This document shows, one piece after another, positions 2,801-19,139 of a stretch of 33,448 bases of DNA. Under the pieces are notes generated by a model. That model was not told the origin of the DNA. It worked only from the letters and a program-made list of their open reading frames with translations, and did no database searches. How positions within the stretch are numbered: position 1 is the first letter of the stretch; every line of letters begins with the position of its first letter. The position numbers were made by a program, and so were the translations under genes. The stretch covers positions 1 to 33,448 of the forward strand of contig CAMTOK010000012.1 in the NCBI GenBank assembly GCA_947074115.1. Direction: 5' to 3'. Source of the stretch: an uncultured Erysipelotrichaceae bacterium. Its GTDB lineage: Bacteria; Bacillota_I; Bacilli_A; Erysipelotrichales; Coprobacillaceae.

Positions 2801-3166
2801 ATGGACTTACATGAATCTGGAGAAATGTACTTAGAGACAATACTCATGTTGAAAAATCAAAACGAATTTGTTAAATCTATTGATGTTGCACACGCTTTAA
2901 ATTATTCAAAGCCAAGTGTATCAAGAGCAATGAAATTGTTAAAGGATGCAAACTTAATCGTCGTTGATGATAAAGGATATATTGATTTTACTGAAGAAGG
3001 AATCAATAAAGCAAATAAAGTATTAGAGAGGCATCACACAATCAAAGAATTCTTAATGAAGATTGGTGTGACAAGTGAAACGGCTGAAAGCGATGGGTGC
3101 CGTTTAGAGCATGTCATTAGTGATGAAACTCATGAATGTATGAAAAAGTTTTTAAAAGGGTTATAA
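2801..3166 (+). CDS. Short DtxR/MntR-family metal-dependent transcriptional regulator
   Basis: The 121-residue protein has an N-terminal winged helix-turn-helix (residues about 20-65) and a DtxR dimerisation and metal-binding helix region. It resembles DtxR rather than MntR at the metal sites: Met9 stands where DtxR has Met10 (Bacillus MntR has Asp8), and Cys100, Glu103 and His104 reproduce the DtxR Cys102-x-x-Glu105-His106 site. His79 and Glu83 match DtxR His79/Glu83, but the DtxR His98 position is Glu. It stops right after the dimerisation helices, so the SH3-like third domain of the 226-residue DtxR is absent. These points suggest an iron-type sensor (inference from ligands). AAGGAAGAGG precedes the ATG. 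It follows the ZIP gene in one operon and is closed by a terminator overlapping its stop codon. Confidence 0.88.
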   Translation: MDLHESGEMYLETILMLKNQNEFVKSIDVAHALNYSKPSVSRAMKLLKDANLIVVDDKGYIDFTEEGINKANKVLERHHTIKEFLMKIGVTSETAESDGCRLEHVISDETHECMKKFLKGL

Positions 3167-13674: not shown

Positions 13675-13703
13675 TTGACATAATACAATAAACATTATAT
13701 TAT
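13675..13703 (+). promoter_or_regulatory. Sigma-A promoter of the AraC-type gene
   Basis: Perfect TTGACA (13675-13680), 17-bp spacer, TATTAT (13698-13703). Transcription would start near 13710, inside the palindrome at 13705-13722. Confidence 0.85.
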
Positions 13704-13704
13704 T

Positions 13705-13722
13705 AGTTAGTCTGTGCTAACT
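13705..13722. promoter_or_regulatory. Palindromic operator candidate, AraC-type gene
   Basis: AGTTAG-N6-CTAACT, a perfect 6-bp inverted repeat over the likely transcription start. The same core (GTTAG, then GCTAACTT) recurs at 14168-14185 before the haem operon. Confidence 0.55.
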
Positions 13723-13734
13723 TACGGAGGGTTT

Positions 13735-14070
13735 ATGTATTTAAGAAAGAATCAATTAAATAAATTGGAGAAGGTTAAGGATGAACTGATATGTGATTTT
13801 TTAACTAGAAGAACAATTAAAGAATTATCAATAAAACATGGTATAGCTGAAACAACACTAAAAATGCAATTTAAAAGTGTTTATGGATTATCAATCTATG
13901 AATATTTAAAGACACATAAAATGACTGTTGCGAGTGAACTCTTACTGTCTAGTGAAATGAGTATACTTGAGATTTCAATGCATTTAGGATATAACAATCC
14001 AAGTAAGTTCTCTTCAGCATTTAAGAGTATTTATGGTGTAACACCAAAAGCATTTCGATCAGTTGTCTAA
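13735..14070 (+). CDS. Minimal AraC-family transcriptional regulator
   Basis: Only 111 residues, of which about 80 form the AraC DNA-binding domain with two helix-turn-helix motifs: TIKELSIKHGIAETTLKMQF and SILEISMHLGYNNPSKFSSAF, ending YGVTPKAFRSV. There is no effector-binding or dimerisation domain, although most AraC proteins are about 250-300 residues. The start at 13735 follows GGAGG by 4 bases. The gene stands directly upstream of, and in line with, the haem-uptake operon, and near-identical palindromes precede both, so it probably activates that operon. AraC-type activators of iron or haem systems are known (for example PchR, YbtA, Btr). How a sensor-less version gets its signal is not visible here. 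Confidence 0.85.
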   Translation: MYLRKNQLNKLEKVKDELICDFLTRRTIKELSIKHGIAETTLKMQFKSVYGLSIYEYLKTHKMTVASELLLSSEMSILEISMHLGYNNPSKFSSAFKSIYGVTPKAFRSVV

Positions 14071-14167: not shown

Positions 14168-14183
14168 GTTAGCGATTGCTAAC
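14168..14183. promoter_or_regulatory. Palindromic operator candidate, haem operon
   Basis: GTTAGC-GATT-GCTAAC, perfect 6-bp arms, ending 3 bases before the AAGGAG of the Shp-like gene. The left flank TAGGTTAGC matches nine positions of the DtxR/IdeR half-site WAGGTTAGS, and the right flank GCTAACTTTA matches nine of ten. The spacing between halves is 5 bp longer than in the classical site. Confidence 0.6.
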
Positions 14184-14201: not shown

Positions 14202-15086
14202 GTGAAAAAAATATTATTAGTTATATTTATGTTGTTTGTATCGATACAAACAACACAAGCATTTGATTTTTCGAGTGTTAAAGAAGGTGAATACAAGTTA
14301 AGCGCATCTTTATCATGTTATGTTCACGCGATGGGTGGTATTGAATTTGGAGCCAATTTGTTAGAAAGTGCTCATCTTAAAGTAGCGGGTAACGGTGACA
14401 AATCGATTGTTCTTAATCTTGGGAAAAGTTCGGTTACAATCTATAACATTGAATGTGATGTTTTTGTAGATGCTTCGCCAAATACACAAGGGACGACAAA
14501 TCCATCCGCAGGAACAATTGGTCTGTATCAAAATGGAAGTCTTATAACAAGTGGGATTCGTTATACACTGAGTTCAGATACAGCATTAAACGCTGCTGGA
14601 GAAAGTGTTAAGTATGTTAAACAAATCGTTATACCTATATCAAGTCAATCTAACACTTATGATTTGACTTTGTATATCAACTCAAATGTTATGGGTGTTC
14701 AATTTGGCGCAATAGACAATGATTATAAAGGAACGCTCACGATAGATTGGTCAAAAATATCCGCACTGAATTCAACAACGCAAAGTGGAATGATTTCAAC
14801 GCAACAAAACACGTCAAATCAATCAACGGATCAATCGGTTGAAGATTTAAATGAGGAAGCGGATGTTCAAGAAGAAAGTGGTTTGATAGAGAGGGATGAA
14901 AATGATGGGTTAAATGTTTATTTTGCAGACAGTGCTGATGAAGATCAGCAAATGACTGTTTATATTAATCAAAATACATTACTCATTATGACAGTGATCT
15001 CCGGGTTATTTATTTTTATTGGGGTCCTATGTTTATTAGTTCCAATGGTTATAAACAGAAAGGAAACTAAGAATGAAAAAGATTAA
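14202..15086 (+). CDS. Membrane-anchored Shp/NEAT-like haem-binding protein
   Basis: The 294-residue protein has a signal peptide (cleavage probably after TTQA, residue 20), a beta-rich domain (about 27-187), an acidic linker (about 190-250), a C-terminal membrane segment (about 259-284) and a basic tail. This is the architecture of streptococcal Shp, whose NEAT-like domain holds haem with two methionines. Met44 (CYVHAMGGIEFG) and Met164 (NVMGVQFG) are conserved in the paralogue at 18246 and are good ligand candidates; His42 is not conserved. The domain ends in LTIDWSKI, also shared. It is followed by a haem-type lipoprotein and ABC importer, as shp is followed by htsABC. It starts with GTG, 9 bases after AAGGAG. 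Function is inferred from architecture and context. Confidence 0.75.
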   Translation: MKKILLVIFMLFVSIQTTQAFDFSSVKEGEYKLSASLSCYVHAMGGIEFGANLLESAHLKVAGNGDKSIVLNLGKSSVTIYNIECDVFVDASPNTQGTTNPSAGTIGLYQNGSLITSGIRYTLSSDTALNAAGESVKYVKQIVIPISSQSNTYDLTLYINSNVMGVQFGAIDNDYKGTLTIDWSKISALNSTTQSGMISTQQNTSNQSTDQSVEDLNEEADVQEESGLIERDENDGLNVYFADSADEDQQMTVYINQNTLLIMTVISGLFIFIGVLCLLVPMVINRKETKNEKD

Positions 15087-15948
15087 ATTAATTATGGTAT
15101 TGTGCATAAGTGTTCTCACACTATCAGGGTGTGGATTAAAAAATAAAGTAGACATACCAGAAGATCAAAATATAAAAATAGTCGCAACATCACCTGTATT
15201 GTGCGATATCCTTAATGCATTAGGATATATGAATGTTGTTGGTGTTCCAGAAACAAGTGAAGAATTACCCGTTGCATATAGAAATGTCCAAAGTGTGGGA
15301 TCACCTATGAGTCCAGATTTAGAAATAATTAAAAGTTTAAATCCTGATTTGGTACTATCACCACAATCATTAGAAGACAGTTTAAGTCAGCAATATTTAA
15401 AAGCAGGTATCAATTCAGCTTTTCTTGATTTGAGTACAGTGGAAGGTATGTATAAGGGGATTGTGTCATTAGGTAATTTATTAGATTGTCAAGATGCTGC
15501 AAAGATATTAAATGATGATTATAAACTCTATATGGAAAATTTAAAACAAAAACAAATAGATGAAAAAGTTCTCTTGATAATGGCATTCCCAGATGGATTC
15601 TATTTGGGTGGAACAAGTCATTCATATGTAGGGCATTTGGTTGAAATGGCAGGATATACAAATGTGTATGGTACAAATACTGTTACAGATAGTACTGGGT
15701 TTGTGAGTTTAAATCCTGAGGATATGTTAAAACAGAATCCTGACAAGATATTGGTCTTCGCTCATTATAATGAAGACGCAGCATTTGATTATATGAAAAA
15801 TGAAATATCTACACAAAAGTCATGGAGTTTCTTTAACGCTGTAAAGAATGATGAGGTTTATTACTTACCTTCATCACATTTTGGAATGAGTTGTACACTT
15901 GACTGGGATCAAAGCTTAGTGTACTTGATGGAGTTATTAAATCAATGA
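15073..15948 (+). CDS. isdE: Haem ABC transporter substrate-binding lipoprotein (IsdE/HtsA type)
   Basis: The 291-residue lipoprotein has a lipobox LSGC (Cys20) and the bilobal helical-backbone fold of iron/haem binding proteins. Its haem-ligand context is clear: Met79 in VGSPMSPDLEIIKSLNPDLV and His231 in VFAHYNEDAAFDYM, which correspond to the Met/His pair of HtsA (Met79, His229) and IsdE (Met78, His229). It would take haem from the Shp-like partner and deliver it to the permease. It overlaps the Shp-like gene by 14 bases and the permease gene by 4, so the complex is translated as a unit. Confidence 0.85.
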   Translation: MKKIKLIMVLCISVLTLSGCGLKNKVDIPEDQNIKIVATSPVLCDILNALGYMNVVGVPETSEELPVAYRNVQSVGSPMSPDLEIIKSLNPDLVLSPQSLEDSLSQQYLKAGINSAFLDLSTVEGMYKGIVSLGNLLDCQDAAKILNDDYKLYMENLKQKQIDEKVLLIMAFPDGFYLGGTSHSYVGHLVEMAGYTNVYGTNTVTDSTGFVSLNPEDMLKQNPDKILVFAHYNEDAAFDYMKNEISTQKSWSFFNAVKNDEVYYLPSSHFGMSCTLDWDQSLVYLMELLNQ

Positions 15949-16949
15949 TGTTAAATAATATAAAAAAATATAAATCTGTCATTCTTTATCTATTCACAAC
16001 TTTATTACTTTGTGGATTGATACTCTACGCTATGAAATCCGGAGGGATTGAAATTGGGTTTAAAGAGTTGTGGAATGGGTTGTTTGTCGAATATGATGCC
16101 CGTGTTGATGTCATATTCGAAATGAGATTTCCAAGAATAATCGTCGCTATTCTCGCTGGAGCACTTATGTCAATGTCTGGTGTTTTGTTACAGGCTGTTA
16201 TGAGAAATCCATTAGCTGATCCTGGTATTATGGGAATTAATGCTGGAAGTGCGTTTGTGACTGTTATCGTATTGGCTTTATTTCCTACGCTTGCAGGGTT
16301 TACACCCATTGTTGCGTTTGTTGGTGGGATGATTGCATTTGGAATCGTATATTTCCTCGCCTATGACAAAGGGATAAGTCCTATGAAACTTGTCCTTGTC
16401 GGTGTTGGAGTAGAAGCAATCTTTAGTGCTTTATATAAAGGGATAGACGCTTTTACTCGCGGTGGTTATAGCAATGTTGCCAATCTTATTGACGCTAATA
16501 TTTCGCTGAAAGATTGGAATGATGTCACAGTTCTTTGTATTTACGCTTTGATTGTGATTCTATTAGTTATCCTAATTGCTCCTCGTTGTGACTATCTATT
16601 GCTTAGTGATGCGACAACACGTTCACTTGGAATTGATATCCACAAAATGAGAATGATTGTCTCAATTATAGCGGTTTTGATGGCTTCTGTTTTTACTGCA
16701 ATTGTAGGGACTGTCAGTTTTCTAGGGTTGGTTGTGCCACACCTTGCAAGAATACTGGTAGGGAGTCAACATAAACGACTCTTACCATATAGCGCATTGC
16801 TAGGGGCAACAATCTTCTTATTTGCAGATACGGTTGGAAGAATGATTGCCTATCCATATGAAATCAGTTCTTCTATCATAATGGGACTGATTGGTGCACC
16901 ATTATTCTTATATTTACTAAAAAGGAAAAGTGATATATATGAATCATAA
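15945..16949 (+). CDS. FecCD-family haem/iron ABC transporter permease
   Basis: The 334-residue protein has nine or ten membrane segments and FecCD hallmarks: RFPRIIVAILAGALMSMSG, LQAVMRNPLADPGIMGINAG and FLGLVVPHLAR. Such permeases form a homodimer that carries haem or siderophores across the membrane. The ATG at 15945 overlaps the lipoprotein stop; a second ATG follows at 15948. Counterpart of HtsB/IsdF. Confidence 0.93.
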   Translation: MMLNNIKKYKSVILYLFTTLLLCGLILYAMKSGGIEIGFKELWNGLFVEYDARVDVIFEMRFPRIIVAILAGALMSMSGVLLQAVMRNPLADPGIMGINAGSAFVTVIVLALFPTLAGFTPIVAFVGGMIAFGIVYFLAYDKGISPMKLVLVGVGVEAIFSALYKGIDAFTRGGYSNVANLIDANISLKDWNDVTVLCIYALIVILLVILIAPRCDYLLLSDATTRSLGIDIHKMRMIVSIIAVLMASVFTAIVGTVSFLGLVVPHLARILVGSQHKRLLPYSALLGATIFLFADTVGRMIAYPYEISSSIIMGLIGAPLFLYLLKRKSDIYES

Positions 16950-17733
16950 TGCCTTTACATTAAAACGTGTTTGTTTTGAATATGATGAAAGCACACAAAT
17001 ATTTAAACATTTAGATTTATCAATTCAGTCAGGTAAAATAATTGGCATCCTAGGTGAAAATGGGTGTGGAAAATCAACATTATTCAAATTGTTAACAAAA
17101 CAAGAGGAAATAAAGAGTGGAACAATTGAAATGAATGAACAAGATATAACACTCTATAAAAATAAAGAGTATTCAAAGATGGTATCGGTCGTTCATCAAT
17201 ATAACCAAGCGCCGCGTGATATAACGGTCAAAGATCTTGTTTCATATGGAAGAACTCCATATCAAAAAGGTTTGTTTCCTTCGCTGAGTCAAGAAGACTA
17301 TAATCTGATTGAAACAGCAATGGAAGATACTGATTTAATTGACTTGAAAGACAAAAGAGTAAGTGAATTGTCGGGTGGTCAAAGGCAAAGGGTATGGCTC
17401 GCTATGGCACTTGCTCAAAACACAAACATATTATTGTTAGATGAAATGACAACTTATTTAGATATAAAACATCAATTAGATATTTTAAATCTCATTAAAG
17501 AACGTCATGATGATACGAAAACAACAATAGTGATATTGCACGATATCAATCAAGCGATTGAGTATTGTGATGAACTTATACTATTGAAAAAAGGGCAAGT
17601 CGTTGCCCAAGGGAAAACAAATGAAATCATCAATGAATCATTGTTAGAAGAAGTCTTTGATATTCAAACAAAAATCATTGATGTTGAAGAAACGAAAATG
17701 TGCTTATTTAGAAGAACAAGGGAAGGTGTATAA
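16939..17733 (+). CDS. Haem/iron ABC transporter ATP-binding protein
   Basis: The 264-residue FepC-type ATPase has Walker A GENGCGKST (39-47), signature LSGGQRQRVWLAMALAQ, Walker B ILLLDEMTTYLD (Met replaces the common Pro after Glu) and the switch His in VILHDINQAIEY. It powers the permease. The ATG at 16939 is preferred over a GTG at 16930, which lies only 3 bases after AGGA. The gene overlaps the permease by 11 bases. Confidence 0.93.
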   Translation: MNHNAFTLKRVCFEYDESTQIFKHLDLSIQSGKIIGILGENGCGKSTLFKLLTKQEEIKSGTIEMNEQDITLYKNKEYSKMVSVVHQYNQAPRDITVKDLVSYGRTPYQKGLFPSLSQEDYNLIETAMEDTDLIDLKDKRVSELSGGQRQRVWLAMALAQNTNILLLDEMTTYLDIKHQLDILNLIKERHDDTKTTIVILHDINQAIEYCDELILLKKGQVVAQGKTNEIINESLLEEVFDIQTKIIDVEETKMCLFRRTREGV

Positions 17734-18204
17734 ATGAAAACTCAATATATAAGGTTAATAGGGTGTGTGAGTTTGGCTATAGGATTCACATGCTTGTTGT
17801 GCACAATGGTTTTCTATATGTTTGGAGGTTACTTATTTAATGGTGTCAATTTCGAATTAGAGCCCGAACAAACTGTTATATTATCAGCGGATATGGAAGC
17901 AAATATCAGCATTCCAGGTTTCGAAACGATGACTATACCAGAGAATCAAAAAACAGTACAAACAACATTGTATAATCCAGAATCAAATTCTTGTTACTTT
18001 CAAATAAGTTTGGTACTCGAGTCTGGAGAAGTGATTTATCAATCTAAACTTGTTCAACCAGGACAATATTTGTATGAGATTGAATTAAATAGAGGTTTAA
18101 AACAAGGGGAGTATAAAGTGACCATCGTGTATGAAACATTTTCGATGGAAAATTATGCACAGTTAAATGGCGCAAAAGTACCATTTCAACTGATCGTTCA
18201 ATAG
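17734..18204 (+). CDS. Membrane-anchored small protein of unknown function in the haem operon
   Basis: I do not recognise a named family. The 156-residue protein has one N-terminal membrane segment (about 9-34) and then an extracytoplasmic beta-rich domain (about 40-156) ending GAKVPFQLIVQ, with a YNPESNSCYFQISLVLESG strand pair and repeated charged turns. It starts directly after the ATPase stop with GGGAAGG upstream, so it belongs to the operon. It may be an anchor or chaperone for the secreted Shp-like protein encoded next, whose C-terminal domain is also beta-rich; this is inference from position only. Absence of this gene from the Isd and Shp-Hts systems I know makes it a distinctive piece. 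Confidence 0.7.
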   Translation: MKTQYIRLIGCVSLAIGFTCLLCTMVFYMFGGYLFNGVNFELEPEQTVILSADMEANISIPGFETMTIPENQKTVQTTLYNPESNSCYFQISLVLESGEVIYQSKLVQPGQYLYEIELNRGLKQGEYKVTIVYETFSMENYAQLNGAKVPFQLIVQ

Positions 18205-18206
18205 GT

Positions 18207-18225
18207 TTTAAAGCGAAAGCTTAAA
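18207..18225 (+). other. Intergenic hairpin before the secreted Shp-like gene
   Basis: A 7-bp stem (TTTAAGC with one bulged A, against GCTTAAA) caps a GAAA tetraloop, with no T-run, 9 bases before AAGGAGG. It is not a normal terminator. It could be an mRNA processing or 5'-stabilising element that raises expression of the last gene (inference). Confidence 0.4.
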
Positions 18226-18245
18226 TATATAAGGAGGAAAAATAA

Positions 18246-19139
18246 ATGAAAAAAGTTTTATTGAAAATGACAAGTGCTCTTATGGCTCTTGCATTGGTAT
18301 TTGGTTTGGTGAATACACCAGTTCACGCAATTGATAGTGATTCATTAGAAGAGGGACGTTATACTATTGGTGCAAGTTTAAGTTGTTATGTGAATGCAAT
18401 GGGAGGAATAGAATTTGGGACTGCTATTTACGATTCAGCAAGAATTGATGTTGATTCAAATGGTGAGATTCAGATCACAATTAATCTAAAAAGTGGTTCA
18501 ATCAGTATATACGGTGTTAAAGCGTCGATGTATGTTGATCCTCAAGGTATCGTTCAATACCATGATGGAGTAACTTGGGTTGATTCAGAACATACTACAT
18601 ATGACGAAGATGGAACTATTATTGTATCATCTATGACTTTGCCGGTGTCAAAAGATATTTCTGTGTATAACTTAGGATTAAAAATCGAAAGTACAATGAT
18701 GGGTTCACAATTTGGTGGTGAAGGTGCTTCAAGAGAAGCAATCTTAACATTAGATTGGTCGGACTTAACAAAAATTATGGACGCTGATGAAGTGACAACT
18801 CAAAGTTCACAAGTATCATATAATATTAGTGGTTCATATGAAGTTTCAATTCCCTCAACTATTCAAGTTGACACGTTGACGAATACTGCTGATTATACTG
18901 TTGAAGCTAACAATTTTGTATTAGGGTCACAAGCGTATGTTAAGGTAACAACTGAACAAAGTGGAAGTTTATCAAATGGAACAACATCTTTATCATTTAC
19001 TAATGGGTTAGATGGAACAACATTAAGAAAAACAGGTGATGTTTTAAATGGTCAAATTGTGATTGCAGAAACACCATCTCAAACAGGAAATTATATTGGA
19101 ACTGTTGATTTCAACATTGAATATTATTCAGGACAATAA
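18246..19139 (+). CDS. Secreted Shp/NEAT-like protein with C-terminal beta domain
   Basis: The 297-residue protein has a signal peptide (cleavage probably after PVHA, residue 28), a haem-type domain (about 34-175) paralogous to the protein at 14202, and a second beta-sandwich-like domain (about 190-297, with GSYEVSIPSTIQVD and a final YIGTVDFNIEYYSG). The shared blocks are ASLSCYV-AMGGIEFG, MG-QFG and LT-DWS; the candidate haem ligands are Met52 and Met152. It has no C-terminal membrane segment, LPXTG or lipobox, so it should leave the cell or be held non-covalently, as expected for a haemophore. AAGGAGG lies 7 bases before the ATG. The terminator follows at once. Confidence 0.75.
   Translation: MKKVLLKMTSALMALALVFGLVNTPVHAIDSDSLEEGRYTIGASLSCYVNAMGGIEFGTAIYDSARIDVDSNGEIQITINLKSGSISIYGVKASMYVDPQGIVQYHDGVTWVDSEHTTYDEDGTIIVSSMTLPVSKDISVYNLGLKIESTMMGSQFGGEGASREAILTLDWSDLTKIMDADEVTTQSSQVSYNISGSYEVSIPSTIQVDTLTNTADYTVEANNFVLGSQAYVKVTTEQSGSLSNGTTSLSFTNGLDGTTLRKTGDVLNGQIVIAETPSQTGNYIGTVDFNIEYYSGQ

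Follow-up and report, generated by a model that had tools for sequence, protein, structure and literature searches.

Organization of the locus

The window, i.e., the whole stretch of 33,448 nucleotides that was analysed, carries between positions 14202 and 19139 an operon of six genes, all on the forward strand, which encode, in order, an anchored domain protein (DOM1), a lipoprotein of the IsdE type, the FecCD permease and ATPase of the importer, a small protein and a free domain protein (DOM2). DOM1 (14202–15086; GTG start, 294 aa) possesses a signal peptide, a predicted NEAT-like domain (14262–14813, from the AlphaFold2 model and Foldseek) containing Met44 and Met164, and a C-terminus made of a hydrophobic transmembrane segment and a charged tail. 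DOM2 (18246–19139; ATG start, 297 aa) also has a signal peptide and a predicted NEAT-like domain (18330–18818) with Met52 and Met152, followed by an extra C-terminal beta domain, and lacks both the hydrophobic segment and the tail. The original prediction had placed two paralogous domain proteins at 14202 and 18246, the first anchored and the second free, sharing the blocks ASLSCYV-AMGGIEFG, MG-QFG and LT-DWS; all of this was found again in both proteins, and their paralogy is clear (BLASTP E 1e-30, 33% identity over 211 residues). The window's genome contains no third copy of the domain, DOM1 and DOM2 matching only each other. In most DOM1 proteins, the linker before the transmembrane segment shows a common DGL[ND][IV] motif, with YA[DN] as its usual continuation.

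Between the two domain genes lie the lipoprotein (SBP, 15073–15948), the FecCD-type permease (15945–16949; PF01032, 1.1e-82) and the ABC ATPase (16930–17733; ABC_tran, PF00005, 5.4e-34), the latter two as announced. They are followed by a gene for a small membrane-tethered protein of 156 aa (17734–18204), which is conserved in the operon of other species and reaches the cut-off of no family model; it presents an N-terminal anchor and conserved YNPxxNxCYF and PGQxLYEIEL blocks, and its counterpart sits between the importer genes and DOM2 in most Firmicute loci. Upstream, the operator GTTAGTCTGTGCTAAC (13706–13721, forward strand) is located 2 bases past the −10 of a strong sigma-70-like promoter match (13675–13703, 11/12) and precedes a short AraC-type regulator (13714–14070, forward strand; HTH_18, PF12833, 3.3e-20), whose real start is, judging from the sequence, likely the ATG at 13735. 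The palindromic operator GTTAGCGATTGCTAAC (14168–14183, forward strand) lies 18 bases 5' of the DOM1 gene. These two operators and the small gene add to the parts listed previously.

An importer lipoprotein close to IsdE

The lipoprotein is matched by the IsdE model TIGR03659 (E 1.7e-72, 244 bits, under the curated cut-off of 298.65) and by IsdE of Staphylococcus aureus (PDB 2q8p, E 4e-36). In the phmmer alignment to the latter, Met79 faces the Met of GQPMEP and His231 the His of LPHGM, two residues of the known haem-ligand region of IsdE. The Met79/His231 pair, already pointed out in the original prediction, thus stands at the IsdE haem-ligand positions and is invariant in 11 homologues; the protein is a putative haem-binding lipoprotein. 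On sequence grounds, these data support an importer of the IsdE/HtsA type, associated with anchored and free carrier domains. The SBP and permease of the window are 47–56% identical to those of the Clostridia loci described below, versus 38–42% to those of a NEAT-Shp operon from the window's own bacterial family, while the ATPase identity does not discriminate between the two.

Predicted fold and position relative to NEAT and Shp

The AlphaFold2 model of the DOM1 domain, built from a 27-sequence alignment (pLDDT 90.3, pTM 0.84), is a beta sandwich in which a short helix after the first strand carries Met24 and a turn before the last strands carries Met144 (domain numbering; Met44 and Met164 of the protein). 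The original prediction had proposed a comparison with Shp and NEAT structures. Searched against the PDB with Foldseek, this model gave NEAT domains as its first 27 matches (IsdH, Hbp2, IsdA, Shp, IsdB), with probabilities of 0.97–1.00, weak E-values (best 4.2e-3, at probability 1.00; none below 0.001) and modest TM-scores (up to 0.60 by target length); Shp 2q7a is among them, at a probability of 0.99. The DOM2 model is weaker (pLDDT 67), and its best match by probability is Shp (0.96), amid low-probability noise. A NEAT beta-sandwich fold is thus predicted for the DOM1 domain.

At the sequence level, no Pfam or NCBIfam model matches the domains of DOM1 or DOM2 with any confidence, nor is there a family match among the 27 members. 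The Shp model (HemeBinding_Shp, PF11545, at E≤1) and the NEAT model (PF05031) each recognize 0/27 members, although both do detect Shp and NEAT proteins, respectively, from the same bacterial family; single-sequence and profile searches of the PDB gave no match either. Profile comparison goes further. Against a reference set of NEAT proteins with three domains each, taken from the bacterial family to which the window belongs and with 9/9 domains Pfam-verified, the domain family reaches an hhalign score of 38.2 (probability 79%), as compared with at most 20.1 for 150 column shuffles of the NEAT profile and 11.9 for the reversed profile; the link covers the N-terminal half, with the lip Met not in exact register. 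Shp itself scores 36.1 against the same set, and a direct hhalign of the domain family to the Shp profile returns no alignment. Since both families score about equally against NEAT and do not align with each other, the domain family appears to lie about as far from NEAT as Shp does, on another branch. The lack of an hhalign and of a PF11545 match speaks against direct membership in Shp. We conclude that the domains are not Shp or NEAT members by sequence and probably form a distinct branch working like Shp: the label "Shp/NEAT-like" given to them at the outset holds for the predicted fold and for the conserved Met pair, and fails for the family models. Overall, the original prediction was largely correct.

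A conserved pair of methionines

Of 36 aligned domains (numbering of 14262–14813), 35 retain Met24 and 34 retain Met144. One copy, L015:4652-5239, has lost both Met together, and Met144 alone is missing from one other domain. The alignment shows no conserved His, and Cys19 and Cys65 are not general. According to the model and to conservation, the two Met sit in the elements expected for Shp-like ligands, i.e., the lip and the late hairpin. The classical NEAT haem motif of the late strands, YXXXY, is absent from both domains of the window and from 22 of the 27 members. The L015 copy devoid of both Met constitutes a natural negative control for haem binding.

A conserved operon with variable anchors in Firmicutes

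About 85,000 species genomes were scanned with peptide patterns, a method that is not exhaustive, and 13 loci were retrieved: three from Treponema and ten from Firmicutes, the latter in metagenome bins that bear labels such as Eubacterium, Clostridium, Ruminococcus and Oscillospiraceae. Eight of the ten Firmicute loci keep the order DOM1-SBP-permease-ATPase-(small)-DOM2. Some of them have additional copies of DOM2, domains in tandem or an ATPase gene at another place, and in two the small gene was not found; of the remaining two loci, one is cut by a contig end and the other is apparently decayed. The C-terminal tail is kept in all DOM1 proteins. Some DOM2 relatives are free; others end in sortase-like APETG/SPKTG sequences (L017, L019), and one bears three SLH domains (L020; PF00395, 1.9e-31). 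The anchor thus varies while the domain remains constant, as expected of a surface carrier. The absence of LPXTG anchors, first put forward as a distinguishing trait, is not one, given these relatives and the fact that streptococcal Shp is also held by a transmembrane segment and a charged tail (PMC1592302). Upstream of the operon, several Clostridia loci present a regulator with weak MntR similarity (L011:6551-7357).

S-layer or sortase-like anchors, together with the weak Foldseek E-values, would also fit structural surface modules, i.e., adhesins or cell-wall proteins of Ig-like fold in which the Met are packing residues and the lipoprotein alone handles haem. However, NEAT and not generic Ig domains head the Foldseek matches, both Met are kept across phyla while their neighbours change and were lost together once, and haem- or iron-type transport genes adjoin the domain genes in 20 of the 21 loci read. 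We therefore consider a purely structural role unlikely and favour carrier domains.

Sporadic distribution and Treponema clusters

The domain was found in none of 97 relatives from the family and order of the window's genome. Of 391 genomes sampled at class level around one Clostridia host, that host alone possesses it, and in a sample of the genus Treponema it occurs in 9/146 genomes (ten Treponema genomes in total). This sporadic distribution suggests that the domain family spread horizontally between hosts. Plasmid and viral collections contain no relatives, and hence give no sign of carriage by such elements. In open-access papers, we found no report of the domain family, of a NEAT-like domain in Treponema, or of the gene arrangement that we describe below for this genus.

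In nine of the ten Treponema loci, the domain is present as a lipoprotein and is encoded close to a TonB-dependent receptor and to a calycin-like lipoprotein (PF13944); these clusters (L021, L023, L066-L072) mostly also comprise ExbB, ExbD, TonB and CydDC-DUF454 genes. In all nine receptors, a His lies between a FRAP-like and an NP[ND]L-like box, a feature typical of haem receptors. The single receptor that was scanned has a haem/haemoglobin model as its best match, under the cut-off, and also scores on a B12 receptor model. From their sequences, the receptors beside the domain lipoprotein are probably haem receptors, and the clusters look like an undescribed outer-membrane haem system.

The B12 score raises the question of the ligand. 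As FecCD importers serve many such compounds, the same fold and the same role in import might be used for another tetrapyrrole or metal complex (e.g., coproporphyrin, cobalamin or a siderophore). Against this, the SBP is nearest to IsdE and keeps its Met/His pair, and the haem/haemoglobin model ranks first for the Treponema receptor; we judge a ligand other than haem improbable, and retain haem.

A CydDC-like exporter pair, often with DUF454, also adjoins domain loci in both phyla and is preceded by an operator copy in the window's genome (L011-L013, L017, L018; L021, L023, L066-L069; L008:3241-6565). A function in cytochrome bd assembly is unlikely, no cytochrome bd subunit I being found in 8 genomes while control genomes were positive. 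Its cargo may be a tetrapyrrole.

A shared operator and putative iron control

The 2.1 Mb genome contains nine distinct copies of the pattern GTTAGN5GCTAAC, for a chance expectation of 0.6 (P about 2e-8, assuming 31% G+C), and none of the reversed pattern. Two of these copies are those at 13706 and 14168, preceding the operon. Others precede feoA and feoB, a FecCD importer, zupT, nrdI, the genes of the CydDC-like exporter pair and a cluster that encodes, among others, a [2Fe-2S] thioredoxin-like subunit. Because the operon shares this operator with feoA, feoB and an iron importer, it is likely under iron control. The genome encodes a DtxR-type regulator (window 2801–3166) and a Fur-type one; the symmetry of the operator suits DtxR types. 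The AraC-type regulator at 13714–14070 consists of the DNA-binding part only and has its own copy of the iron-type operator; it may represent a second layer of control.

Proposed mechanism and significance

Paralogy, gene order, conservation, predicted fold and the shared operator, all computed directly, lead us to propose, with a probability of about 0.8, an iron-regulated haem uptake operon in which two-Met NEAT-like carriers feed an IsdE-type importer. From these data, we infer haem as the ligand, its bis-Met ligation, the direction of transfer and repression by iron, the order of the relay being taken by analogy. In both DOM2, free, and DOM1, membrane-tailed, the NEAT-like beta sandwich would bind haem with two Met as axial ligands, one in the lip that follows the first strand and one in the hairpin that precedes the last strands. 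By analogy, DOM1 would then pass haem to the lipoprotein, where Met79 and His231 may receive it, and the permease and ATPase would take it in. A variant, which we regard as possible but rather doubtful, keeps DOM1 as haem carrier and makes of DOM2 either a store of haem or a receptor of haemoproteins that come from the host or the diet, the secreted-to-anchored order being then wrong in detail. The extra C-terminal domain of DOM2, its lack of a tail and its duplicated or tandem state in relatives would agree with this variant; on the other hand, both Met are kept in DOM2.

Beyond the window, we lean, by a modest degree, towards a branch of the NEAT superfamily, undescribed and with two Met, that would act as a portable haem carrier in monoderm Firmicutes and diderm Treponema and would have spread between phyla. 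In Firmicutes, it would be anchored by transmembrane, sortase-like or S-layer means and feed an IsdE-type importer; in Treponema, it would be a lipoprotein working with a TonB-dependent haem receptor. With this family, Met ligation is predicted far beyond the streptococci, and nature provides a case in which to ask whether bis-Met ligation is coupled to rapid transfer to a Met/His lipoprotein. Should haem be bound by the Treponema members, TonB receptors also work with a fold so far assigned to Gram-positive surfaces. Moreover, none of the curated models searched detects the family, so that haem uptake of this kind goes unnoticed in genomes from gut and rumen.

Comparison with known systems

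In its gene arrangement, the Treponema TonB receptor beside a lipoprotein carrier resembles the HmuY-type haemophore with its TonB receptor HmuR; HmuY itself differs in fold and relies on two His. The NEAT domains of Isd and Shr share with the window domains the predicted fold and a weak but real profile similarity, and two Met are also used in Shr. Unlike them, the window domains stay under PF05031 detection, lack YXXXY and measure about 165–180 residues, versus 119 positions in the NEAT model. In a structural comparison of 2025, all NEAT domains examined use Tyr, except those of Streptococcus pyogenes, which use Met, and both NEAT domains of Shr use two Met (PMC12796733). Clostridial-group NEAT domains also come from anaerobic hosts, lack YXXXY and have a conserved Met in an extended beta7-beta8 loop; in contrast with the window family, they are recognizable as NEAT by sequence (PMC4143258).

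Shp binds haem in streptococci through Met66 and Met153 (PMC2266757), and its Streptococcus equi counterpart is held by a transmembrane segment and a charged tail (PMC1592302). Within the window's own bacterial family, one genome (G003) possesses a NEAT-Shp-SBP-permease-ATPase operon, whose Shp was verified by PF11545 and PDB 2q7a and occupies the slot that DOM1 occupies in the window. The window operon differs from Shp-HtsABC (sia operon) by the lack of an Shp model match and of Shr, and by two additional proteins encoded after the ATPase, namely the small one and the free paralogue. It shares with it the gene of a transmembrane-tailed surface protein just before the SBP gene, a two-Met domain, a Met/His SBP, a permease, an ATPase and a probable iron-linked control.
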